A stretch of 64,000 nucleotides of DNA from Nakamurella flava. GTDB taxonomy: Bacteria; Actinomycetota; Actinomycetes; Mycobacteriales; Nakamurellaceae. Of this stretch, positions 7,419 through 18,403 are shown piece after piece (positions within the stretch are counted from its first letter, which is position 1; each line of letters starts with the position of its first letter). Below the pieces are notes generated by a model. It saw only the letters and a list, made by a program, of their open reading frames with translations, was not told the DNA's origin and did not search any database. The stretch lies in contig NZ_SZZH01000001.1 of the NCBI RefSeq assembly GCF_005298075.1, forward strand, positions 992,001 to 1,056,000, read 5' to 3'. Position numbers and translations under genes: made by a program.

Positions 7419-8633
7419 TCAGCCGCGGGCGAGGGCGGCGACGGCCCCGATGACCACCACGGCCGGGGAGGCCAGTCCCGCGGCCCTGACGTCCGCGGGC
7501 AGGGTGGACACCGTCCCGACGACGGTCTGCTGCTGCGGGGTCCAGCCGTTCGCGATCGCTGCGGCCGGGGTGTCGGGCGCCAGCCCCGCCCCGATCAGAC
7601 CGGCCGTGACCTCCGGCAGCAGGGCCATGCCCATGAGGACGACGAGGGTGGCGTCCGGGTCGACCAGCCGGGCCCAGTCGGTCCCGGCGCGGGCGTCGGT
7701 AACCACCGCGTCGTGCCCGGAGAGCACGGTCACCTGGCGGGACAGACCCCGGTGGGTGACCGGGATGCCGGCGGCGGCCGGAACGGAGATGGCGCTGGTG
7801 ACGCCCGGGACGACGGTGACGTCGACCCCGGCCTCCCGGCAGGCCAGGACCTCCTCGCCGCCGCGTCCGAACAGGAACGGGTCGCCGCCCTTGAGCCGGA
7901 CGACCCGGCGGCCGGCCTGGGCGTGCTCGACCAGCAGCCGGTTGATCTCCGGCTGGGGTACCGGGTGCCGGCCGGGGGTCTTGCCCACGTCGATCAGCAG
8001 CACCTCGGGCCGCAGTTCGGCCAGGACGCCCACCGGACCGAGACGGTCGTGCACGACGACCTCGGCGGCGGCCAGTTCCCGACGCCCCCGGACGGTCAGC
8101 AGGTCGGGGTCGCCCGGACCGCCGCCGACCAGGACGACCCGTCCGGGGCCGGGGCGGTGCCGGTGCAGCGGCAGGTCGCCGCGGTCCAGGGCCTGGGCGA
8201 GCGCGTCACGTAGGTGGGCGGCCCGCCGCGGGTCGGCCCCGGCGGTGGCACCGATGCTGATCTGCAGTCCGTCGCGGACGACGCTGGCGGTGCTGCGGGC
8301 GGTCCCGGCGGTGGCGTCGTCGGCCCGGACGCAGAACGTCCGGTCGGCGGTGGCCGCCGCCTCGACCGCCTCGTCGGTGTCCCGGTCACCGGTGGCCGCG
8401 AACACCAGCCAGGCGCCGTCCAGGTCGCCGGCCTGGTACTCGCGGGCCGTCCAGATGAGGGCGCCGGAGCCAGCCAGGTCGGTGATCTCCTCGCACGCCC
8501 ACGGGGCGACGACGGTGACGAGCGCGGCCGCGGCCAGCGCCGACCGCACCTTGCGGGCGGCCACCGGGCCGCCCCCGACGACCACGACCCGCCGTCCGGT
8601 CAGGGACAGCTGCAACGCGAGCGGCGTGGTCAT
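7419..8633 (-). CDS. cysG: siroheme synthase: precorrin-2 dehydrogenase fused to uroporphyrinogen-III methyltransferase
   Basis: 404 residues. The N-terminal domain (about 1-150) is a Met8-like NAD-binding dehydrogenase: 'GRRVVVVGGGPVAARK' and 'DTDEAVEAAATADRTFCVRADD'. The C-terminal domain (about 165-400) is a SUMT methylase with 'VLVGGGPGDPDLLTVRG', 'VVHDRLGP' and 'RVVRLKGGDPFLFGRGGEE'. Together they convert uroporphyrinogen III through precorrin-2 to sirohydrochlorin and siroheme, the cofactor of NirB encoded in the same operon. E. coli CysG is somewhat longer (about 457). The start is ATG 8633; it is the last gene of the nitrate operon, 71 bp after narK. Confidence 0.9.
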   Translation of the reverse strand: MTTPLALQLSLTGRRVVVVGGGPVAARKVRSALAAAALVTVVAPWACEEITDLAGSGALIWTAREYQAGDLDGAWLVFAATGDRDTDEAVEAAATADRTFCVRADDATAGTARSTASVVRDGLQISIGATAGADPRRAAHLRDALAQALDRGDLPLHRHRPGPGRVVLVGGGPGDPDLLTVRGRRELAAAEVVVHDRLGPVGVLAELRPEVLLIDVGKTPGRHPVPQPEINRLLVEHAQAGRRVVRLKGGDPFLFGRGGEEVLACREAGVDVTVVPGVTSAISVPAAAGIPVTHRGLSRQVTVLSGHDAVVTDARAGTDWARLVDPDATLVVLMGMALLPEVTAGLIGAGLAPDTPAAAIANGWTPQQQTVVGTVSTLPADVRAAGLASPAVVVIGAVAALARG

Positions 8634-8704: not shown

Positions 8705-10105
8705 TCAGACACCCTCGAGGCGACGCGCGTGCGGCCGCAGGTACACGTACCAGGTGACGGCGAAGCAGACCGCGTAGAAGGCGATGAACGCGATGTACGC
8801 CGAGTCGGCCGACTTGGTGGCCAGGAACGACTGGCGGAAGGCCAGGTTGACCAGCACTCCACCGAACGCGCCGATGGCCCCGGCGATGCCGATGAGCGCC
8901 CCGGCGTACCGCTGGGCCTTGGCCATGGAGGCGGCCGGTTCGGCGCCACCCTGGGTGATCTCCAGGCCGGACTTGGCCTTGAAGATGGCCGGGATCATCT
9001 TGTACACCGAGCCGTTGCCGAGCCCGCTGAAGGTGAACAGCAGGATGAAGCCGACCAGGTAGAGCGGGAGCGAGTGCATGAGCGAGGCGGCAAGGACGAT
9101 GCCGGCGCCGATGGCCATGGCCACGAAGTTCACGAACGACACGCGGGCACCGCCGAGCTTGTCGGCGAGCATGCCGCCGACCGGGCGGATGAGCGAGCCG
9201 ATGAGCGGGCCGATGAAGGTCAGGTAGGCGGCCTTGATCGGGGTGGAGAAGATGTCGGCGAACTGGACCTGCAGCACCTGACCGAAGGCGAAGCTGAAAC
9301 CGATGAAGGATCCGAAGGTGCCGATGTAGAGCAGCGAGATGATCCACGTGTTGCGGTCCTTGGCGACATCGCGCATGGCCCGCTTGGCGTTCTTCATCTC
9401 GGCCAGGTTGTTCATCGTGAACCAGGCGCCGACGGCGGCCGCGATGATCAGCGGGATGTAGATGATGGGCAGCAGCCGCGGGTGGGTCGCGCCCACGGTG
9501 GCCAGGATGAGCAGGCCGATGAGCTGCACGACCGGCACACCGATGTTGCCACCACCGGCGTTGATGCCGAGCGCCCAGCCCTTGCGGTGGTTGGGGTAGA
9601 ACGCGTTGATGTTCGTCATCGACGAGGCGAAGTTGCCGCCACCGACGCCGGCCAGGCAGGCCACGAACAGCAGGGTGCCGTAGCTGACCCCGGGTTCGAG
9701 GACGACGATGATCGCGATCGTGGGAACCAGTAGCAGCAGGGCGCTGACCACGGTCCAGTTGCGGCCGCCGAAGGTCGCCACCGCGAACGTGTACGGCAGA
9801 CGCAGGATCGCGCCGAGCAGGGTGGGCAGCGCGGTGAGCAGGAACTTGCCGGCCGGGTCGATGCCGTAGTCCGGCCCGAGGAACAGGACCAGGACCGACC
9901 ACATCGACCAGACGGAGAAGCCGATGTGCTCGGAGATCACCGAGAACAGCAGGTTCTTCTTGGCGACGTACTTGCCGGTGGACTCCCAGAACTCCGGGTC
10001 CTCCGGGCGCCAGTCGGTGATCCAGTGCTTGCCCTGGTGCTTGACGGTGGTCGGGGCGGCGGTGTCGGTCGCCTGGGCGGACGTACCCGGGGTTGTGGTC
10101 ATCAA
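8705..10105 (-). CDS. narK: nitrate/nitrite transporter (MFS, NarK/NasA type)
   Basis: 466 residues with about twelve membrane spans. The family signatures are 'ACLAGVGGGNFASSMTNINAFYPNHRKGWALG' (quoted in part: GGGNFASSMTNINAFYP) in the first half and 'FSGLGNGSVYKMIPAIF' in the second, the two glycine-rich nitrate-signature regions. An Arg in each half that binds nitrate is plausible, but I did not map it. The N-terminal 60 residues ('HWITDWRPEDPEFWE') are typical of actinobacterial NarK. It lies between nirD and cysG in the nitrate-assimilation operon, so it should import nitrate rather than serve respiration. Confidence 0.9.
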   Translation of the reverse strand: MMTTTPGTSAQATDTAAPTTVKHQGKHWITDWRPEDPEFWESTGKYVAKKNLLFSVISEHIGFSVWSMWSVLVLFLGPDYGIDPAGKFLLTALPTLLGAILRLPYTFAVATFGGRNWTVVSALLLLVPTIAIIVVLEPGVSYGTLLFVACLAGVGGGNFASSMTNINAFYPNHRKGWALGINAGGGNIGVPVVQLIGLLILATVGATHPRLLPIIYIPLIIAAAVGAWFTMNNLAEMKNAKRAMRDVAKDRNTWIISLLYIGTFGSFIGFSFAFGQVLQVQFADIFSTPIKAAYLTFIGPLIGSLIRPVGGMLADKLGGARVSFVNFVAMAIGAGIVLAASLMHSLPLYLVGFILLFTFSGLGNGSVYKMIPAIFKAKSGLEITQGGAEPAASMAKAQRYAGALIGIAGAIGAFGGVLVNLAFRQSFLATKSADSAYIAFIAFYAVCFAVTWYVYLRPHARRLEGV

Positions 10106-10207: not shown

Positions 10208-10537
10208 TCAGACGGTGACGACGACGTCTCCGGAGTCGGTGATCTCGACCGGGTAGGACCGCAGCGACGGCAGCCCGTTGCGCGAGCAGCCGGTGGCCAG
10301 CTCGAAGGCGTTCAGGTGCAGCGGGCAGACGACGACGGCGCCGTCGATCTGGCCGTCGGCCAGCGGTCCGCCCTTGTGCGGGCACACCGCGGAGACGGCG
10401 TGCACCTTGCCGGTGCGCAGGTGGAAGACGGCGACCTGCTGCCCGTCGACGGCGAACGCACGGCCCTCCCCCGCCGGGATCTGGCTCAACGGGCCCAGGT
10501 CGAACTGACGACCGGTGGCCGGCACGGTGGCGGTCAT
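10208..10537 (-). CDS. nirD: nitrite reductase small subunit, Rieske type
   Basis: 109 residues. The Rieske iron-sulfur ligands are present as 'CPHKGG' and, after 17 residues, 'CPLHLNAFELATG', so this NirD keeps a full [2Fe-2S] site, unlike many enterobacterial NirD proteins. It partners NirB in NAD(P)H-dependent reduction of nitrite to ammonium in the cytoplasm. The ATG overlaps the nirB stop in an ATGA junction (10534-10537), so the subunits are co-translated. An Ala/Gly-rich N-terminus ('MTATVPATG') precedes the domain. Confidence 0.92.
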   Translation of the reverse strand: MTATVPATGRQFDLGPLSQIPAGEGRAFAVDGQQVAVFHLRTGKVHAVSAVCPHKGGPLADGQIDGAVVVCPLHLNAFELATGCSRNGLPSLRSYPVEITDSGDVVVTV

Positions 10538-13125
10538 GCCCGCACCCCCACCTTCGGCAGGACCTCGAGCGGCAGAGAGGTGCGGAACTGGCCGGGGGTG
10601 GCCGGTGCGGCGCCTTCCTTCCACGGGTCCTTGTAGGCGTCGACGGCCTGTTGCATGCGGGCGTCGAGATCGGCGGCGATGCCCAGGGAGTCCTCGACGA
10701 TGACCTCGCGGAGGAAGTCGAGGCCGACCCGCGGCACGAACGCGTAGGTGCGCTCCAGCCACTTGGCGTTCTCCCGGTAGTACTGCATGAACCGGCCGGT
10801 GAGCAGGTTCGCGGTCTCCGGGTCGTCGACCGTGGCCAGCAGGTCGCCCTTGCGGATGTGGGCGCCGGCCGCGCCGCCGATGTAGATCTCCCAGCGGCCG
10901 CCCTCGATGGCGACGATGCCGACGTCCTTGACCAGCGACTCCGCACAGTTGCGCGGGCAACCGGACACCGCCAGCTTCATCTTGGCCGGCGACTCGAGGC
11001 CCTGGTAGCGGGACTCCAGGTCGATGCCGAGCTGGGTCGAGTCACCGGTGCCGAACCGGCAGAACTCCTGTCCCACACAGGTCTTCACCGTGCGGAAGCT
11101 CTTGCCGTAGGCGTAGCCGGACGGCATGTCCAGGTCGGCCCAGACCTTGGGCAGGTCCTCCTTGCGGATGCCGAGCAGGTCGATGCGCTGCCCGCCGGTG
11201 ACCTTGACCAGCTTGACGTCGTACTTGTCGGCGACGTCGGCGATGCGGCGCAGCTGGTCGGGGGTGGTGACCCCGCCCTTCATCTGCGGGACGACGGAGA
11301 ACGTGCCGTCCTTCTGGATGTTGGCGTGGACGCGGTCGTTGATGAACTTCGCGTCCTTCTCGTCGATGTAGTCGTCGGCCCACATCATCTTCAGCAGCGA
11401 GGCCAGACCCATCTTGGACTTGGCGTCCTCGGCGCCCTCCGGGGCCAGCGCCGCGAACACGCTGGAGACGCTGCGCAGCTGCTGATCCAGGATGGCCTTC
11501 ATCAGCTCGGGCTTGTCCATGGGGATACCCGGGACGTACCAGTTGGCCGACGGGTCCTCCTGCACGGCGCCGCCGGCGGCCCACTCGACGACCTGGCAGA
11601 CCATGTTCTTGCAGGAGCCGCAGCCCTTGCCGGCCCGGGTCTTCTCCATGACGCCGGCGACCGACTTGACGCCGCTTTCGACGCAGGCGACGAGGGCGCC
11701 CTTGGAGACGCCGTTGCAGTTGCAGACCTGGGCGTCGTCGGCGAGTTCGGCGATGCCGACCTCCTCGGCCGGGGTGCCCAGGTTGAACAGCATCTCCAGG
11801 CGTTCCTCGGGCAGCGGCAGCCCCTGGTCGAACGCCTGGATGAGGAACGCGACCTTGGAGGTGTCGCCGAGCATGGTGGCGCCGATGAGCTTCTCGTCGC
11901 GGATGATCAGCGACTTGTAGACGCCGCGCTTGGGCTCGGAGAAGACGATGACCTCGTCGGTGTCCCGCTCGGGACCCTGCACACCCATCGCGGCGACGTC
12001 GACGCCGGCCACCTTGAGCTTGGTCGCCGTCCGCGAGCCGTGGTAGGCCGCGGTCGGGTCGGTGCCGGTGAGGTGGTCGGCCAGCACCGCGGCCTGTTCC
12101 CAGAGCGGCTGGACCAGGCCGTAGACCTCGCCGCGGTGCTGCACGCACTCGCCGACCGCGTAGACGTCCGGGTCGTCGACGGTGCGCATCTGGTCGTCGA
12201 CCACGATGGCCCGCTCGACGGTGAACCCGCTGGTGACGGCGAGGTCGATGTTGGGACGGATGCCGGCGGCGACCACGACCATGTCGCACTCCAGGAGCGG
12301 GTGGTCGAGAAGGTAGACACCCTGGACCTTCTCGTCGCCCATGATCGCGGTAGTGCGGGCCTTGAGGTGCACCTCGATGCCGAGTTCCTCGACGCTCTTG
12401 CGCAGGATGTCGCCGCCGGCCGGGCCGATCTGGGCGTTCATCAGATGGGATCCGGCGTGCACGACGTCGACCTGGAGACCGTAGGCCTGCAGACCGCGGG
12501 CGGCTTCGAGACCGAGCAGCCCGCCGCCGATGACGACGGCGCGGCGGTGGTCGTCGTGTTCGGCGTACTCGACCATGCCACGGGTGTCGTCGATGGTGCG
12601 GAAGGCGAAGACGCCCGGCTTGAGCGAGCCGTCGTCCATCCGCAGGCCCTCGATGCTGGGCATGAACGAACGACTGCCGGTGGCGATGATGAGGACGTCG
12701 TAGGGCGACTCGTAGGTGGTGCCGTCGACGGTCGACTGCGCGTACACGATCTTGCTGAACCGGTCGACGCGGGTGGCCCGCACGCCGGCGTGCAGCGTGA
12801 TGTCGTTCTCCTCGTACCAGGCGATGCTGTTGAGGAAGATGTCGGCGTCGGTCTCCTCGCCGGACAGCACGTGCGACAGCATGATCCGGTTGTAGTTGCC
12901 GTAGGGCTCGTCGCCGAACATCGTGACGGTGAACTGCTCGGCCCCGCCGCGCTGCAGGATCTCCTCGACCGCGCGAGCGCCGGCCATCCCGTTGCCGATG
13001 ACGACCAGTCGGCGGCGGGTCTCGAAGTCCTCGTCGTCCAGGACGACATCGGGCACGGTGCCGGTCATCTCGTCGTCCGCCTGTCCGAGAAGCTCACTGT
13101 GGTGCGAGGTGTGGTCGATGGACAT
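10534..13125 (-). CDS. nirB: assimilatory nitrite reductase large subunit
   Basis: 863 residues. Domain order: an FAD/NAD(P)H-binding Pyr_redox module ('LVVIGNGMAGARAVEEI' near 40, 'AVVIGGGLLGLEAARGL' near 190), a BFD-like [2Fe-2S] domain ('VCNCNGVSK' and 'GKGCGSCKNMVCQ', about 440-490), and a siroheme/[4Fe-4S] reductase domain with ligands in 'CVGQEFCRFG' and 'CPRNCAES' near 690-740. All cofactor sites look intact. It carries out the six-electron reduction of nitrite to ammonium. ATG 13125 shares one base with the preceding stop (TGATG). NirD follows in an ATGA overlap. Confidence 0.95.
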   Translation of the reverse strand: MSIDHTSHHSELLGQADDEMTGTVPDVVLDDEDFETRRRLVVIGNGMAGARAVEEILQRGGAEQFTVTMFGDEPYGNYNRIMLSHVLSGEETDADIFLNSIAWYEENDITLHAGVRATRVDRFSKIVYAQSTVDGTTYESPYDVLIIATGSRSFMPSIEGLRMDDGSLKPGVFAFRTIDDTRGMVEYAEHDDHRRAVVIGGGLLGLEAARGLQAYGLQVDVVHAGSHLMNAQIGPAGGDILRKSVEELGIEVHLKARTTAIMGDEKVQGVYLLDHPLLECDMVVVAAGIRPNIDLAVTSGFTVERAIVVDDQMRTVDDPDVYAVGECVQHRGEVYGLVQPLWEQAAVLADHLTGTDPTAAYHGSRTATKLKVAGVDVAAMGVQGPERDTDEVIVFSEPKRGVYKSLIIRDEKLIGATMLGDTSKVAFLIQAFDQGLPLPEERLEMLFNLGTPAEEVGIAELADDAQVCNCNGVSKGALVACVESGVKSVAGVMEKTRAGKGCGSCKNMVCQVVEWAAGGAVQEDPSANWYVPGIPMDKPELMKAILDQQLRSVSSVFAALAPEGAEDAKSKMGLASLLKMMWADDYIDEKDAKFINDRVHANIQKDGTFSVVPQMKGGVTTPDQLRRIADVADKYDVKLVKVTGGQRIDLLGIRKEDLPKVWADLDMPSGYAYGKSFRTVKTCVGQEFCRFGTGDSTQLGIDLESRYQGLESPAKMKLAVSGCPRNCAESLVKDVGIVAIEGGRWEIYIGGAAGAHIRKGDLLATVDDPETANLLTGRFMQYYRENAKWLERTYAFVPRVGLDFLREVIVEDSLGIAADLDARMQQAVDAYKDPWKEGAAPATPGQFRTSLPLEVLPKVGVRA

Positions 13126-13472
13126 CAGACGACCACCAGTCCGATGTCCAGGATCACGGTGCCGGTCAGGCCGTCGGGGGCGGCCAGCTGCAGTTCGACG
13201 GTGGTGCCGCCCTCCAGGTCCTCGACGACCCGCAGCGGCACGTGCACGTCCGACTTGGCGCCGATCGGGAAGTACCGCATCGGCACCCCGTCGCGCAGCA
13301 TGACGAGGGTGATCAGCTCGTCGGTGGTGTTGCCGCCGCGGAAGTACAGGGCCTGGGCGACCGAACCGTCCGGTACGAGGTAGCTGAGCGAGGCATCCAG
13401 CGGGACGGGCTGGTCGATGCCCTTGCCGGTGAATCCGAAGACGCCTTGCAGGAACTTGTTCCGGGTGTGCAT
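13125..13472 (-). CDS. small protein at the 3' end of nasA, possible independent start inside the nasA frame
   Basis: The last 115 residues of the nasA frame look like a separate small globular protein: it starts 'MHTRNKFLQGVFGFTGKG', contains 'LYFRGGNTTDELITLVML' and 'RYFPIGAKSDVHVPLRVV', and ends 'GTVILDIGLVVV'. An AAAGGA Shine-Dalgarno sits about seven bases before ATG 13472, so it can be made alone. It is preceded by about 50 residues of Pro/Arg/Ser-rich linker. I do not recognise the family. Its place between nasA and nirB suggests a nitrate-reduction role. Whether it is free, fused to NasA or both is open. Confidence 0.55.
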   Translation of the reverse strand: MHTRNKFLQGVFGFTGKGIDQPVPLDASLSYLVPDGSVAQALYFRGGNTTDELITLVMLRDGVPMRYFPIGAKSDVHVPLRVVEDLEGGTTVELQLAAPDGLTGTVILDIGLVVV

Positions 13473-15758
13473 CGCGTTGTCCTTTGTCCTGGAAAATGCG
13501 GCGGGGCGGGACGGTGGAGCGGATCCGGCGACGCTGCGGGATCGGGATCGGGGGGCCTGGGCGGCCCGGTCGGGTCCGAAGGCGGACCGCTGGGGAGCGG
13601 GCTGGGCCGGGACGCGGGCGAGCAGGTGGGTGTCGTCGGGGTCGCCGACCCGGACGACGTCGACGGCGCACACCTTGAACTCGGGCATCTTCGACAGCGG
13701 GTCCAGGGCCGGGTCGGTGAGCACGTTGGCGTTGCTCGCCCCGCCCCAGTGGAACGGGGTGAACACGGTGTCGGCCCGGATCGCGGTGGTGACGTCGGCC
13801 CGGAACACGGCCGCCCCGCGCCGGGTGCGCAGCTCGACCATGTCGGCGTTCTCGATGCTCAGCCGGCGGGCCAGGTCCGGGTGCAGCTGCACCGTGGGGT
13901 CGGGGACCATCGTGCCGCCGAGCCGCCGGGTCTGGGTGCCGCTCTGGTACTGGGTGAGCAGTCGACCGGTGGTCAGTGTGTACGGGTAGCTGCGGTCCGG
14001 GCTCTCCACCGGCTTGCGGTGGTGCACCGGGAAGAACCGGGCCCGCCCGTCGGCGGTGGCGAACCGGTCGGCGAACAGTCGCGGCGTCCCCGGGTGGTCG
14101 GCGGTCGGGCACGGCCAGAACACGCCCTGTTCGGCCTCGATGCGCTCGTAGGTGATGCCGGCGTAGTCGGCCAGTCCCCCGGCGCTGGCCCGGCGCAACT
14201 CGTCGAACACCTGCGCCGGCTCGTCGGAGAAGAACCGGCCCCGGCCGAGCGCATCGGCCAGCCGGCGCATGACCTGCAGGTCGGTGAGCACGCTCTTCGG
14301 CGGCACGACGGCGCGGCGGCGGCGGATGACCCGGCCCTCGACGTTGGTCATCGTCCCCTCCTCCTCGGCCCACTGGGCGGTCGGCAGGACGACGTCGGCG
14401 AGCTGGGCGGTCTCGGACAGGAAGATGTCCGAGACGACCAGGGTGTCCAGCGCCTGCAGGCGGCGGCGGACCCGGTTCGCGTCGGGGGCCGAGACGATGA
14501 CGTTGGACGCGAAGACCAGCAGGGTGCGGACGCCGCCGTCGGTGCCCAGGCGGTCGAGCATCTCGAAGGCCGACTTGCCGGGGGCGGGCAGTTCGTCGGG
14601 GTGGATCCCCCACACGCCGGCGACGTGGGCGCGGGCCGCCGGGTCGTCCAGGCGGCGGTAGCCGGGCAGCTGATCGGCCTTCTGACCGTGTTCGCGGCCG
14701 CCCTGGCCGTTGCCCTGGCCGGTGATGGTGCCGTAGCCGGAGGCCCACTTGCCGGGCAGCCCCAGGGCGAGCGCCAGGTTGATCCAGGCGTGCGTGGTGT
14801 CGGTGCCCTTGCTGTGCTGTTCGGCGCCGCGGGCGGTGAGGATCATCGCCGACGGGGCCGCGGCCAGCGTGCGGACGGTCTGCTCCAGATCGGCGACCGC
14901 GACACCGGTGATGCGTTCGACCCGATCCGGCCAGTAGGCGGCGACGGCGGCCTTCACGGCGGCGAAGTTGGTGGTGCGGGCGGCGATGTAGTCGATGTCG
15001 ACGAGGTTCTCGCGGATCGCGATGTGCAGCAGGCCGTTGGCCAGGGCCAGGTCGGTGCCGGGCCGGAGCGCGAGGTGCAGGCCGGCGCCGGCGGCGGTGT
15101 TGGTGAGCCGGGGATCGACCACGATGTGCCGCGCCCCCTTGGCCCGGCCCTCGTCGAAGTACTGCATGGCCGGCGGCATGGTGTCGGCCGGGTTGCCCCC
15201 GACCAGCAGCACGGCCGCCGCCTCGGCGATGTCGGCCAGCGGGAACGGCAGGCCCCGGTCGATCCCGAACGCCCGGTTCCCGGCGGTGGCGGCCGACGAC
15301 ATGCAGAACCGGCCGTTGTAGTCGATCATCGCCGTCCGCAGCGCCACCCGGGCGAACTTGCCGAGCGCGTAGGCCTTCTCGTTGGTCAGCCCGCCGCCGC
15401 CGAAGATGCCGACCGCGTCCGGGCCGTGGGTCTGCTGGCTGTGGGTGACGGCGGCGACGATGCGGGCCAGCGCCTCGGCCCACGACGCCGGCCGGAGCGG
15501 GCTGGTGCGGTCGCCGTCCACCGTCCGCACCAGCGGGGTCAGCAACCGTTCCTTGTGGTCCAGCAGTTCGGCGGCGGTGAAGCCCTTGGCGCACAGGCCG
15601 CCCCGGTTGGTCGGGAAGTCCAGAGGTTCCAGGACGATGGGTCGAATGCCGCCGGCGGGCTTGCGGGTCAGGGAGATGCCGCACTGCAGCGAGCAGTACG
15701 GGCAGTGGGTCTCCGTGGCCCCGGCAGGGGTGGAAGACGCGGCGGCGGTCGCGATCAC
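13125..15758 (-). CDS. nasA: assimilatory nitrate reductase, molybdopterin catalytic subunit
   Basis: 877 residues if the whole frame is used; the reductase proper is about the first 710. The N-terminal [4Fe-4S] ligands are 'CPYCSLQCG' and 'GGLCAKG'; the molybdopterin domains follow ('EKAYALGKFARVALRT', 'VLLVGGNPADTMPPA', 'WAEEEGTMTNVEGRVI', 'TPFHWGGASNANVLTDP'). It reduces nitrate to nitrite in the cytoplasm for NirBD. GTG 15758 was chosen over an upstream in-frame GTG at 15830 because a likely promoter/operator palindrome lies at 15810-15826. There is no stop before the 115-residue C-terminal segment, an unusual read-through fusion. The gene heads the nasA-nirBD-narK-cysG operon. Confidence 0.88.
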   Translation of the reverse strand: MIATAAASSTPAGATETHCPYCSLQCGISLTRKPAGGIRPIVLEPLDFPTNRGGLCAKGFTAAELLDHKERLLTPLVRTVDGDRTSPLRPASWAEALARIVAAVTHSQQTHGPDAVGIFGGGGLTNEKAYALGKFARVALRTAMIDYNGRFCMSSAATAGNRAFGIDRGLPFPLADIAEAAAVLLVGGNPADTMPPAMQYFDEGRAKGARHIVVDPRLTNTAAGAGLHLALRPGTDLALANGLLHIAIRENLVDIDYIAARTTNFAAVKAAVAAYWPDRVERITGVAVADLEQTVRTLAAAPSAMILTARGAEQHSKGTDTTHAWINLALALGLPGKWASGYGTITGQGNGQGGREHGQKADQLPGYRRLDDPAARAHVAGVWGIHPDELPAPGKSAFEMLDRLGTDGGVRTLLVFASNVIVSAPDANRVRRRLQALDTLVVSDIFLSETAQLADVVLPTAQWAEEEGTMTNVEGRVIRRRRAVVPPKSVLTDLQVMRRLADALGRGRFFSDEPAQVFDELRRASAGGLADYAGITYERIEAEQGVFWPCPTADHPGTPRLFADRFATADGRARFFPVHHRKPVESPDRSYPYTLTTGRLLTQYQSGTQTRRLGGTMVPDPTVQLHPDLARRLSIENADMVELRTRRGAAVFRADVTTAIRADTVFTPFHWGGASNANVLTDPALDPLSKMPEFKVCAVDVVRVGDPDDTHLLARVPAQPAPQRSAFGPDRAAQAPRSRSRSVAGSAPPSRPAAFSRTKDNAMHTRNKFLQGVFGFTGKGIDQPVPLDASLSYLVPDGSVAQALYFRGGNTTDELITLVMLRDGVPMRYFPIGAKSDVHVPLRVVEDLEGGTTVELQLAAPDGLTGTVILDIGLVVV

Positions 15759-15809
15759 GGTTTCCAGAGTCGTTCGGCGATGTTTCGTTCGCAGCCGAGC
15801 GGCGTTACG

Positions 15810-15826
15810 GAACAATTTTCTTGTTC
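15810..15826 (-). promoter_or_regulatory. perfect inverted repeat in the nasA promoter region
   Basis: GAACAA-TTTTC-TTGTTC (plus strand) is a perfect 6-bp-arm inverted repeat and one of the few AT-rich spots in the region. It lies 52 bp before the chosen nasA start, and the AAAATT it contains on the minus strand could be the -10 box, so a bound regulator would block or direct transcription of the operon. GlnR is the usual controller of such operons, but I could not fit a clean GlnR box (GTnAC-N6-GAAAC) here. Confidence 0.45.
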
Positions 15827-15917
15827 TCACAGCCGCAGGTCAGGCCTGTGGGGGTGGTTCGGCCGGCGTGACCTCGGCGGGACGGACCGGCCCCGGACGG
15901 GTGGTTCCGCCGGGGTG

Positions 15918-15946
15918 TGGAACTTCGGGCCCCATCCGGTCGACAC
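15918..15946 (+). promoter_or_regulatory. putative ECF-sigma promoter of the zf-HC2 gene
   Basis: TGGAAC (15918-15923), a 17-base spacer and CGACAC (15941-15946) form a typical ECF -35/-10 pair. The expected transcription start, about seven bases past the -10, falls at or next to GTG 15954, so the mRNA would be leaderless. The same arrangement with the same spacer (GGGAAC-N17-CGACTA) lies before the copper operon at 20153-20181. Confidence 0.55.
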
Positions 15947-15953
15947 TCTCGGG

Positions 15954-16781
15954 GTGACCGGGACACCACCAGCGTGCCAGCAGTGTCGGGAGTCGCTGTC
16001 CGCGGGGTGGGACGGTGAGCCCGCGGAGCTGTCCGACGCCCAACTGGACGAGCACCTCAGCGGGTGTGCGGCCTGCCGTGACTGGCAGGAGCGCACGTCG
16101 ACCGTCAGCCGGCTTCTCAAGGTGCGGTCCGTGGACGACGTGCCCGATCTGTCCGGCGCCATCGGGGCCGCGGCGGCGGCGACCGGGCTCGTCCGGTCGG
16201 TTCCCGCGACGGGTGCGGGGTCCCGTCGCGGACCGGCCTGGTGGTGGTCGACCGACACCTGGCGGGTCGCCCTCGCGGTCATCGCCGTCGCGCAACTGCT
16301 GCTCGGGACGGCGCAGCTCTTCGGGATCTCGCTGTTCGGGATGGCCGGCCACGCCGACCACATGGCGATGGCCGGCCCGCCGGACGATCACCTGTTCAAC
16401 GAGAGCTCGGCCTGGAACATCGCGATCGGCGCCGGGTTCGTGGCCGCGACGGTCATGCCCCGGCGGGCGGCCGGCTTGCTACCGATGCTGCTGGTCTTCC
16501 TCGGCGTCCTGACCGCCGTGTCGGTCTCGGACCTGGCGCGGGGGGAGGTCACCACGGCTCGGGTGGTCTCCCACCTGCTCGTGGTGATCGGGGTCCTTGT
16601 GCTGTGGCGGGTCGACCGTTCCTACCGGCGGTCGCCGCTACCCGGTCACCGGCAGGCCGGCTGGGACGCCGTCCTGCACCGGGGTGCGGACGCCGGGGAG
16701 GGGGCCGACGGGGTGGCCGGCACGGAGGAGACGGGACGGCGGGGCCGCTGGCTGCGCCCGGCCGGTCGCCGCGCGGCCTGA
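15954..16781 (+). CDS. zf-HC2 (anti-sigma-like) membrane protein with His/Met-rich external loop
   Basis: 275 residues from GTG 15954. The N-terminus holds a zinc-binding anti-sigma signature: 'CQQC' near 9-12 and 'HLSGCAAC' (H-x3-C-x2-C) near 37. Four membrane spans follow: 'WRVALAVIAVAQLLLG', 'WNIAIGAGFVAATVM', 'LLPMLLVFLGVLTAV' and 'VSHLLVVIGVLVLW'. With a cytoplasmic N-terminus, the loop after the first span faces outward, and it is packed with metal-binding residues: 'FGMAGHADHMAMAG' then 'DDHLFNE'. I infer a copper-responsive transmembrane anti-sigma factor. The nearest ECF gene is 2.6 kb away, on the other strand. An Arg-rich cytoplasmic tail ends the protein. Confidence 0.7.
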   Translation: MTGTPPACQQCRESLSAGWDGEPAELSDAQLDEHLSGCAACRDWQERTSTVSRLLKVRSVDDVPDLSGAIGAAAAATGLVRSVPATGAGSRRGPAWWWSTDTWRVALAVIAVAQLLLGTAQLFGISLFGMAGHADHMAMAGPPDDHLFNESSAWNIAIGAGFVAATVMPRRAAGLLPMLLVFLGVLTAVSVSDLARGEVTTARVVSHLLVVIGVLVLWRVDRSYRRSPLPGHRQAGWDAVLHRGADAGEGADGVAGTEETGRRGRWLRPAGRRAA

Positions 16782-16822: not shown

Positions 16823-18403
16823 TCAGCGCCGCCCGGCCAGCCACCGGCGGACGGGCGGTTCGACGTTCCAGCGCACGGCCCCGAGCAGGTCCTTGCCCCG
16901 TTCCAGCGGCGTGTTGTCACCCCGCCGGGCCAGTTCGACCGTCGCGAGGTCGAGGTCGTCGCCCTGGTGGTGCAGCACGGTGTCGAAGTCACGCCGCACC
17001 GGGGCGTGCAGGTCGAACCCGTTGCGGCGGTGCAGCGTCGGGAACAGGGGTTTGAACAACCGGGCCCGGTCGTGCAGGCCGGAGGAGTAGGACATGCCGG
17101 ACTTCGGGCGGGTGCGGATGTGGTCGGGCAGGATGTCGGCGAACGCCTCCCGGACCAGCCACTTCTCCTGCGGCCCACCGATCTTCATGGCGAGCGGGAT
17201 GCGCCGGGCCAGGGTCACCATCTCCCGGTCCAGGAACGGCACCCGGGCCTCGACGCCCTGACTCATGGCCGCCCGGTCGACCCGGTGCAGTTCGGTGCGA
17301 CCGAGGTTGGCGAGCTTGTGGACGAACAGGCGCTCCCCCTGGGCGGCGTCGATGTCGTGGTACATCCGGTACCCGCCGAACAGCTCGTCCGATCCGTCAC
17401 CGGTGAGGACGACCTTGATGCCGAGGTCGTGGAAACGCCGGAACAACGGGATCGAGACGGCGGCGTTGATGATGTCGCCGTACTCGGTGAGTTCCCCCAC
17501 CCGGACGGCCTGCGCCATCTGCCGCCAGCCGAGGTCCGCGGGCCGCAGGTCGACCACCTCGTGGCGGACCCCGAGTTCGGCGGTGAGGCGACGGGCGTGT
17601 TCGAGGTCCTTGCTCCCGGGGGCGCCGATGGTGACGGCGACGCAGTCCGGGTGCATGCGGTGCACGTGGTGCAGCACGACGGAGCTGTCCAACCCGCCGG
17701 AGAGCACGACGCCGACGGTCAGGTCGGTCCGCAGCCGGATGGCGATGGACTCCGACAGTGTCCGCCGCACCAGGTCCACCGCCTCCCGGGGGTCGGTCAC
17801 CTGTTCCTCGACGGGCACCGTCGACCGGATGTCGTAGTGCGGCAGCAGGTGTGGTCCGGAGCCTCGCCGGGCCCAGCCGTGATGGCCGGGCGGCACCTCG
17901 GTGATGGCCGCACCGACACCGACCAGGGCCTTGATCTCGGAGGCGACGTGCAGACGGCCGTGCCGCCAGGAGAAGTAGAGGGGTTTGACCCCGAGTGGGT
18001 CACGCACCAGGTAGGTGTCGTCGGTGTGGAGATCGACGACGGCGAAGGCGAACTCGCCCCGGAGCCGGTCGACCGCGGCCTCGCCCCATTCGAGGAAGGC
18101 CGTCATGACGACCTCGGTGTCGGATTCGGTGCCGAAGGTGTGCCCGGCGGCGGCCAGTTCCGCCCGCAGCTCGTCGTGGTTGAAGACCTCGCCGTTGTAG
18201 CAGAGCAGCCATCGGCCGTCCGGCGACTGCCACGGTTGGACGGCGTGCTCCCGGTCGACGATGCGCAGGCGCTGCGTCCCGGCCTGCACCGTCGGGGTGT
18301 GTCGACGCTCGTCGAGCTCGCCCCGGCCGGCGATGGCGGCCATCATCGGGTCGAGATCGGACGGCTGACCGCCAGGACCGATGACCAGTGCGATACCGCA
18401 CAT
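16823..18403 (-). CDS. asnB: asparagine synthetase (glutamine-hydrolysing) family protein
   Basis: 526 residues. Cys2 ('MCGIALVIG') is the glutaminase nucleophile once Met is removed; the class II glutaminase domain runs to about 200 ('LLCYNGEVFNHDELR', 'SDTEVVMTAF'). The synthetase domain carries the ATP-pyrophosphatase loop 'VVLSGGLDSSVV' near 240 and 'VLTGDGSDELFGGYRMY' near 345. It uses glutamine and ATP to amidate aspartate or a similar carboxylate. Related actinobacterial LtsA/AsnB amidates peptidoglycan diaminopimelate; the metallopeptidase-like gene just upstream (one base away) makes a cell-wall role possible, but this is inference. Confidence 0.88.
   Translation of the reverse strand: MCGIALVIGPGGQPSDLDPMMAAIAGRGELDERRHTPTVQAGTQRLRIVDREHAVQPWQSPDGRWLLCYNGEVFNHDELRAELAAAGHTFGTESDTEVVMTAFLEWGEAAVDRLRGEFAFAVVDLHTDDTYLVRDPLGVKPLYFSWRHGRLHVASEIKALVGVGAAITEVPPGHHGWARRGSGPHLLPHYDIRSTVPVEEQVTDPREAVDLVRRTLSESIAIRLRTDLTVGVVLSGGLDSSVVLHHVHRMHPDCVAVTIGAPGSKDLEHARRLTAELGVRHEVVDLRPADLGWRQMAQAVRVGELTEYGDIINAAVSIPLFRRFHDLGIKVVLTGDGSDELFGGYRMYHDIDAAQGERLFVHKLANLGRTELHRVDRAAMSQGVEARVPFLDREMVTLARRIPLAMKIGGPQEKWLVREAFADILPDHIRTRPKSGMSYSSGLHDRARLFKPLFPTLHRRNGFDLHAPVRRDFDTVLHHQGDDLDLATVELARRGDNTPLERGKDLLGAVRWNVEPPVRRWLAGRR

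Follow-up and report, generated by a model that had tools for sequence, protein, structure and literature searches.

In the soil bacterium Nakamurella flava, the gene for the nitrate reductase NasA reads in frame into a small C-terminal protein, here called X, which has a Shine-Dalgarno sequence and a start codon of its own and which directly precedes nirB. Comparison with relatives suggests that X is probably made both joined to NasA and free. The reading that we favour, at a probability of roughly 45%, is that both products are made and that the fused X would tether NasA to NirBD, whose NADH module would then serve both reductions. The features concerned, within the window (the whole stretch of 64,000 nucleotides that was analysed), are as follows.

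7419 to 8600, reverse strand: CysG-like sirohaem synthesis protein (NAD_binding_7 and TP_methylase, Pfam)
8705 to 10105, reverse strand: narK-like nitrate/nitrite transporter of the MFS type (Pfam)
10208 to 10537, reverse strand: nirD, Rieske-type small subunit, its start overlapping the nirB stop (Pfam)
10534 to 13125, reverse strand: nirB, 863 amino acids, with FAD/NAD(P)H module, BFD-like [2Fe-2S] and sirohaem/4Fe-4S module (Pfam); X-type NirB clade by tree
13123 to 13127, reverse strand: TGATG, the X stop overlapping the nirB start, a layout suited to translational coupling and shared by most X loci
13125 to 13472, reverse strand: X domain, 115 amino acids plus stop, internal ATG at 13472-13470; predicted all-beta jelly roll
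13480 to 13485, reverse strand: internal Shine-Dalgarno AAAGGA, 7 nt before the internal ATG
13473 to 13625, reverse strand: linker of 51 residues rich in Pro, Arg, Ser and Ala, predicted disordered (pLDDT about 30 in the fusion model), with a coding signature in relatives
13665 to 15716, reverse strand: NasA catalytic part (Molybdop_Fe4S4, Molybdopterin and Molydop_binding, Pfam)
13125 to 15830, reverse strand: complete nasA-X fusion reading frame, 901 amino acids, the start taken as the first GTG past the upstream stop

The first-pass annotation had described nasA as open into a C-terminal segment of 115 residues, preceded by a Pro/Arg/Ser linker of about 50 residues and by an AAAGGA Shine-Dalgarno before ATG 13472, and had called the small protein unrecognised. 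Each of these readings stands: the frame of 13125-15830 runs uninterrupted from NasA through the 51 linker residues into X, the Shine-Dalgarno lies at 13485-13480 with a spacing of 7 nt, and no Pfam or NCBIfam family covers X (no Pfam match at a meaningful level among 62 members, and no NCBIfam match for the window X). A PDB sequence search likewise gave no significant match. The true start of nasA possibly lies slightly downstream of the GTG used here. All three domains expected of NasA (Fe4S4, molybdopterin and dinucleotide-binding) are found by Pfam, and the best NCBIfam match is the NasC-type assimilatory nitrate reductase NF047855, at 806.7 bits against a curated cut-off of 1100. The window enzyme is of the NasA type by its domains and operon, and it falls outside the narrow NF047855 equivalog. 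On the NasA tree, the window locus is placed among named Nakamurella loci. Upstream of nasA, on the same strand, lies a gene for an asparagine synthase-like protein (GATase and Asn_synthase; 16823-18403, reverse strand). Very long antisense or off-frame open frames occur opposite nasA and nirB (for example 13242-16781, forward strand) and are a by-product of GC-rich codon use; a query made from an off-frame translation of the nasA strand still matches relatives at 50-60% identity, which is a warning on frames in GC-rich DNA.

The linker that joins the two parts is of variable length in the fused genes (11 to 105 residues) and is always in frame. Not one in-frame stop occurs in 1840 linker codons, while the other two frames contain 11 and 3. 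Furthermore, in the disordered part of the linker, differences between nine disjoint close pairs of Geodermatophilaceae are distributed over the first, second and third codon positions as 24, 23 and 55 (p = 6e-5). The linkers appear, from these patterns, to evolve as coding sequence, with the long product evidently translated and under selection. In Pseudofrankia and its kin (L084, L104, L145 and L147-L149), two clusters of the X-nirB type occur in one genome; their NasA-X linkers measure about 50 to over 100 residues, and the internal start is kept in all of them.

The constant partner of X is nirB. X lies directly before nirB in every close-relative locus of over 5 kb, and X-nirB pairs are also present without a nasA of this type nearby in Arthrobacter, Frankia, some Mycobacteriaceae and a Pseudonocardiales MAG. 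It seems, therefore, that the basic function of X is independent of NasA, and the earlier proposal of an accessory subunit for nitrate reduction does not describe its primary role. Among 399 genomes of the order, X was found in 92 and X-type NirB, counted as at least 64% identical to the window NirB, in 97; both occur together in 91, X alone in one and NirB alone in six. The next NirB group is at 43% identity or less, save for one partial match at 53%, and in a tree of the NADH modules those of X-type NirB group together as a separate clade (SH-aLRT 99). The sole X-only genome (G477) does carry an X-type NirB, split between frames; this nirB (L189:2943-4535) shows an apparent frameshift between its reductase and sirohaem modules, which may be real or an assembly error. 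As to the six genomes with X-type NirB and no X, all of them Mycobacteriaceae, an in-frame X remnant of 27 residues precedes nirB in three of the loci read: MSITPRFLQGAFPVAGEVVIDRGRVVA in L184 and L188 (genomes G729 and G749) and MTSTRRYLRSVDRYTGGAVTDLGQVVL in L186 (G630). The middle of the domain has been deleted in frame, with the start, the stop and the overlap with the nirB start retained. Hence, loss of the X domain need not entail loss of the start and the coupling. The N-terminal extension of NirB was also considered for a role in NirB binding and was dropped, as it is variable in length and sequence and absent from several loci.

This close tie to nirB is the basis of the main rival to the reading with two products and docking, namely that the internal start chiefly loads ribosomes on nirB. 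Ribosomes entering at X would restart at TGATG and uncouple the level of NirB from that of NasA; free X would be in part incidental, and the extension of NasA by X would be tolerated or of slight use. The overlap of the X stop with the nirB ATG in most loci, the window included, speaks for such an arrangement, and the remnants in Mycobacteriaceae favour some role of this kind. However, X is strongly conserved, at 58-78% identity between families, which is unexpected of a mere leader, and the linker is in frame and under coding selection, so the fusion has been kept too. We consider this explanation somewhat unlikely as the main account, while both can be true.

The internal start itself draws its weight from comparison. 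The Shine-Dalgarno of the window is unremarkable when taken alone: its duplex energy is -5.5 kcal/mol, and 9 of the 40 in-frame starts of this reading frame reach -5 or better, so it was rejected, as being within chance, as a proof in its own right. It becomes significant because it is conserved across 55 distinct fused genes, which are drawn from several families of actinobacteria. X residue 1 is encoded by a start codon in all 55 (33 GTG, 21 ATG and 1 TTG), compared with 4.2% of in-frame codons generally, and a Shine-Dalgarno at -5 or better precedes it in all 55, compared with 21.7% of 1833 other in-frame starts; the members are related, and these nominal counts overstate their independence. 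Despite this kinship, several separate fused lineages agree on the internal start. On the NasA tree, the codon of X residue 1 has changed at least six times, exclusively between start codons, and the residue preceding it at least 17 times, with 13 different amino acids represented. Where X residue 1 is valine, it is encoded by GTG every time, and GTG makes up 36% of valine codons in the same gene bodies. Similarly, arginine is encoded by AGG or AGA in 52 of 112 cases in the last six linker codons as against 65 of 2973 in the gene bodies, and the anti-SD energy has a strong minimum within the linker at about -15.

A synonymous-codon null, in which the amino acids are held fixed, was rejected for the Shine-Dalgarno in the Geodermatophilaceae tested (p up to 0.04) and in one further MAG. 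In Nakamurella it was not rejected (p 0.18-0.9), because the residues RKD or KG entail AAGGA or AAGGG and so account for the motif there; this null was accordingly set aside as a proof, by itself, of the Nakamurella Shine-Dalgarno. The free-standing X gene of Arthrobacter (L045 and L050) has AAAGGA at a spacing identical to that of the window. On the comparative evidence, the internal start is likely to be functional. Since this start is combined with stop-free, coding linkers, X is probably produced in both forms, fused to NasA and free.

These same observations bear on the possibility that the fusion alone is made, with the Shine-Dalgarno and start codon being relics of separate genes or marking a translational pause between domains. 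Such an account can draw on the Nakamurella motif being explained by the encoded residues, and on Shine-Dalgarno-like internal sites being common in these GC-rich genes. It does not readily explain why both elements stand at a fixed spacing in all 55 genes despite freely changing neighbours, long-fused families included, and a start codon would be superfluous for a pause. We regard it as improbable.

Structure prediction narrows what X may be. AlphaFold predicts an all-beta protein with a mean pLDDT of 95.7, and in a model of the whole fusion X folds separately from NasA, the linker being disordered. The predicted X may resemble in overall fold the C1q/TNF-like and related trimeric jelly rolls (Caprin-2 C1q, BclA, BxpB/ExsFA, Bc2L-C and Ena), with VIA-align Z scores of 8.5-10.1 and an rmsd of 2.2-3.4 over 93-111 residues; these Z scores are barely above the usual background, and several unrelated jelly-roll families are tied. 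X has no Pfam match and is only 6-16% identical to these proteins. Many jelly rolls of the C1q/TNF type and similar are trimers.

The redox enzyme maturation chaperones of the NarJ/TorD kind have an all-helical fold. The suggestion of the first-pass annotation that the small protein might be a chaperone for nitrate reduction is thus unlikely for a protein of that kind, given the all-beta fold predicted for X. In a broader form, X might assist the maturation or stability of NasA or NirB, acting in folding or cofactor insertion with no tether; it is small, conserved, encoded in the operon and, if made free, in excess, and no NarJ-like gene was noticed within the operon. Apart from its predicted fold, however, a permanent fusion to NasA would be odd for a chaperone, and the NasA of relatives works without X. 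We judge such a role to be quite unlikely.

The distribution of the two states informs on the origin of the fusion. X is fused to NasA in all nine Nakamurella genomes that carry it, and for this reason the fusion is no sequencing slip. In Geodermatophilaceae (a family assigned from named neighbours on the NasA tree), a continuous frame of 856 amino acids or more is present in 64 of 65 genomes, and NasA is in frame with X in every locus read that has NasA in view and an intact frame. The remaining genome (G593) was rejected as an unfused case, as its frame ends at a contig end. Fusions are also found in Propionibacteriaceae/Friedmanniella, Kineosporia, Cellulomonas, Herbidospora, Nonomuraea, Winogradskya and Pseudofrankia. 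The first-pass annotation had left it to a comparison with relatives whether the small protein has a gene of its own; in many of them it does, including most Actinoplanes, Micromonospora, Mycobacterium and Arthrobacter. The fused state has changed at least seven times on the NasA tree, three of these changes being forced by well-supported branches. The earlier alternatives had been a lost nasA stop giving a fusion, or the production of both long and short forms: the dual forms are likely on the comparative evidence, and a recent stop loss is contradicted by these state changes and by a fusion that is fixed in Nakamurella and Geodermatophilaceae.

A neutral fusion, a functionless stop loss between adjacent genes, is very improbable: one base is indeed able to switch the state in some Actinoplanes relatives (nasA and X share one frame with a single TAG between them in Nucisporomicrobium L037, and Winogradskya L041 has GAG), but fusion is near-universal in the two groups just described, and linkers of widely varying length stay in frame with a third-position excess.

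Distant relatives of X, at about 40% identity, stand alone in another actinobacterial family (f32; L136, L137 and other loci); in L137, peroxiredoxin-like and CbiX/SirB-like genes lie within 4 kb of X, with no nirB near. A free X of 117 amino acids on a plasmid of Ca. Mycobacterium methanotrophicum (L002:7980-8333, NZ_CP097321.1, WP_219070157.1) is annotated as 'molybdopterin oxidoreductase', a naming error that was probably carried over from fused relatives.

The evidence for a shared electron donor comes from a comparison of loci with and without X. A separate FAD/BFD NADH reductase follows nasA in 22 of 22 loci without X, and no NasA reductase was found within 3 kb in any of 58 loci with X. 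In the genome of the window itself, the only protein that resembles the NasA reductase is NirB, which is 51% identical to it across the corresponding module. It thus appears that X and an NADH reductase dedicated to NasA exclude each other, and it is this pattern that leads to the proposal that NasA may borrow the NADH module of NirB. The X-less relatives (L162-L183) have a homologous NasA, at 52-63% identity, in nitrate assimilation operons as in the window; unlike the window, they have a separate reductase, no X, and a NirB from another clade. One of them is itself a Nakamurella species (L162, genome G014), with a NasA at 54% identity, a separate reductase and a NirB that is not of the X type; both arrangements therefore occur within one genus.

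In the mechanism that we propose, the nasA-X gene would yield two products: initiation at the nasA start would give the fusion, and initiation at the internal start codon with its Shine-Dalgarno would give free X. X would be a small beta-jelly-roll partner of one NirB clade, translationally coupled to nirB, and the fused X, on its flexible linker, would dock NasA on NirBD. The NADH/FAD/BFD module of NirB would supply NasA in addition to its own sirohaem site, with electrons passing from NirB to NasA, probably via the Rieske protein NirD. Nitrite from NasA would be freed beside the enzyme that consumes it and handed on locally. The shared NirB module would replace the dedicated NADH reductase of X-less relatives. 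Through free X and the coupled restart, X and NirB would be produced in larger amounts than NasA. The sequences themselves support that the two parts are fused, that the internal start is conserved, that the linker is under coding selection, that X is linked to NirB and that X and the dedicated reductase exclude each other; we infer the existence of both proteins, the binding of X to NirBD and the flow of electrons from NirB to NasA. A point against the shared module is that a ferredoxin from elsewhere in the genome could feed NasA.

Put more broadly, and more tentatively still, X may be an adaptor that makes one NirBD clade a bifunctional nitrate-to-ammonium complex, in which NasA is docked via the fused X and shares the NADH module of NirB in place of a reductase of its own, with the retained internal ribosome-binding site determining how much NasA is docked relative to free X and NirB. 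If this is true, both steps of nitrate assimilation can draw on a single NADH module through an adaptor family that is absent from the libraries used, which would explain the many actinobacterial NasA enzymes that have no reductase partner. Comparison would then also offer a clear example of fused genes in which the old internal start is retained, with fused and free forms coexisting. Neither the X family and its association with a single NirB clade, nor its exclusion of a NasA reductase, nor the fusion that retains an internal start appears to have been described: a literature search turned up nothing on X, on a NasA fusion or on such a dual start, which is weak evidence, as most subscription journals lie outside that search.

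The nearest functional parallel is NasB-NasG-NasC of Paracoccus denitrificans, which, according to the available text of the reports, is an NADH-dependent nitrate/nitrite reductase (PMC5424462, PMC6618116). As far as that text goes, the two systems have in common a nitrate reductase that lacks an NADH module of its own, an FAD/BFD NirB-like protein and a Rieske NirD-like protein, all in one operon. Indeed, Pfam identifies in the window operon a NirB with NADH/FAD and BFD modules and a Rieske protein, and neither the neighbourhood of the 58 X loci (3 kb) nor, NirB aside, the window genome offers a dedicated NADH reductase. Unlike in Nakamurella, no X protein or fusion is described for NasB-NasG-NasC in the available text, and the electron route in Nakamurella is the one proposed above.

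Internal in-frame starts that give a long and a short product are known from CcmM, ClpA and CheA, and in the case of CcmM the short form is anchored by the long form (PMC11005335). The nasA-X gene differs from these in that its parts are separate genes in relatives, in that the internal start looks to be the one with which the downstream gene originally began, and in that its short product is here a prediction from sequence. Like CcmM, ClpA and CheA, nasA-X contains within its longer frame a start codon and a Shine-Dalgarno that are both conserved, and its putative short form corresponds to the C-terminal part of the long one.
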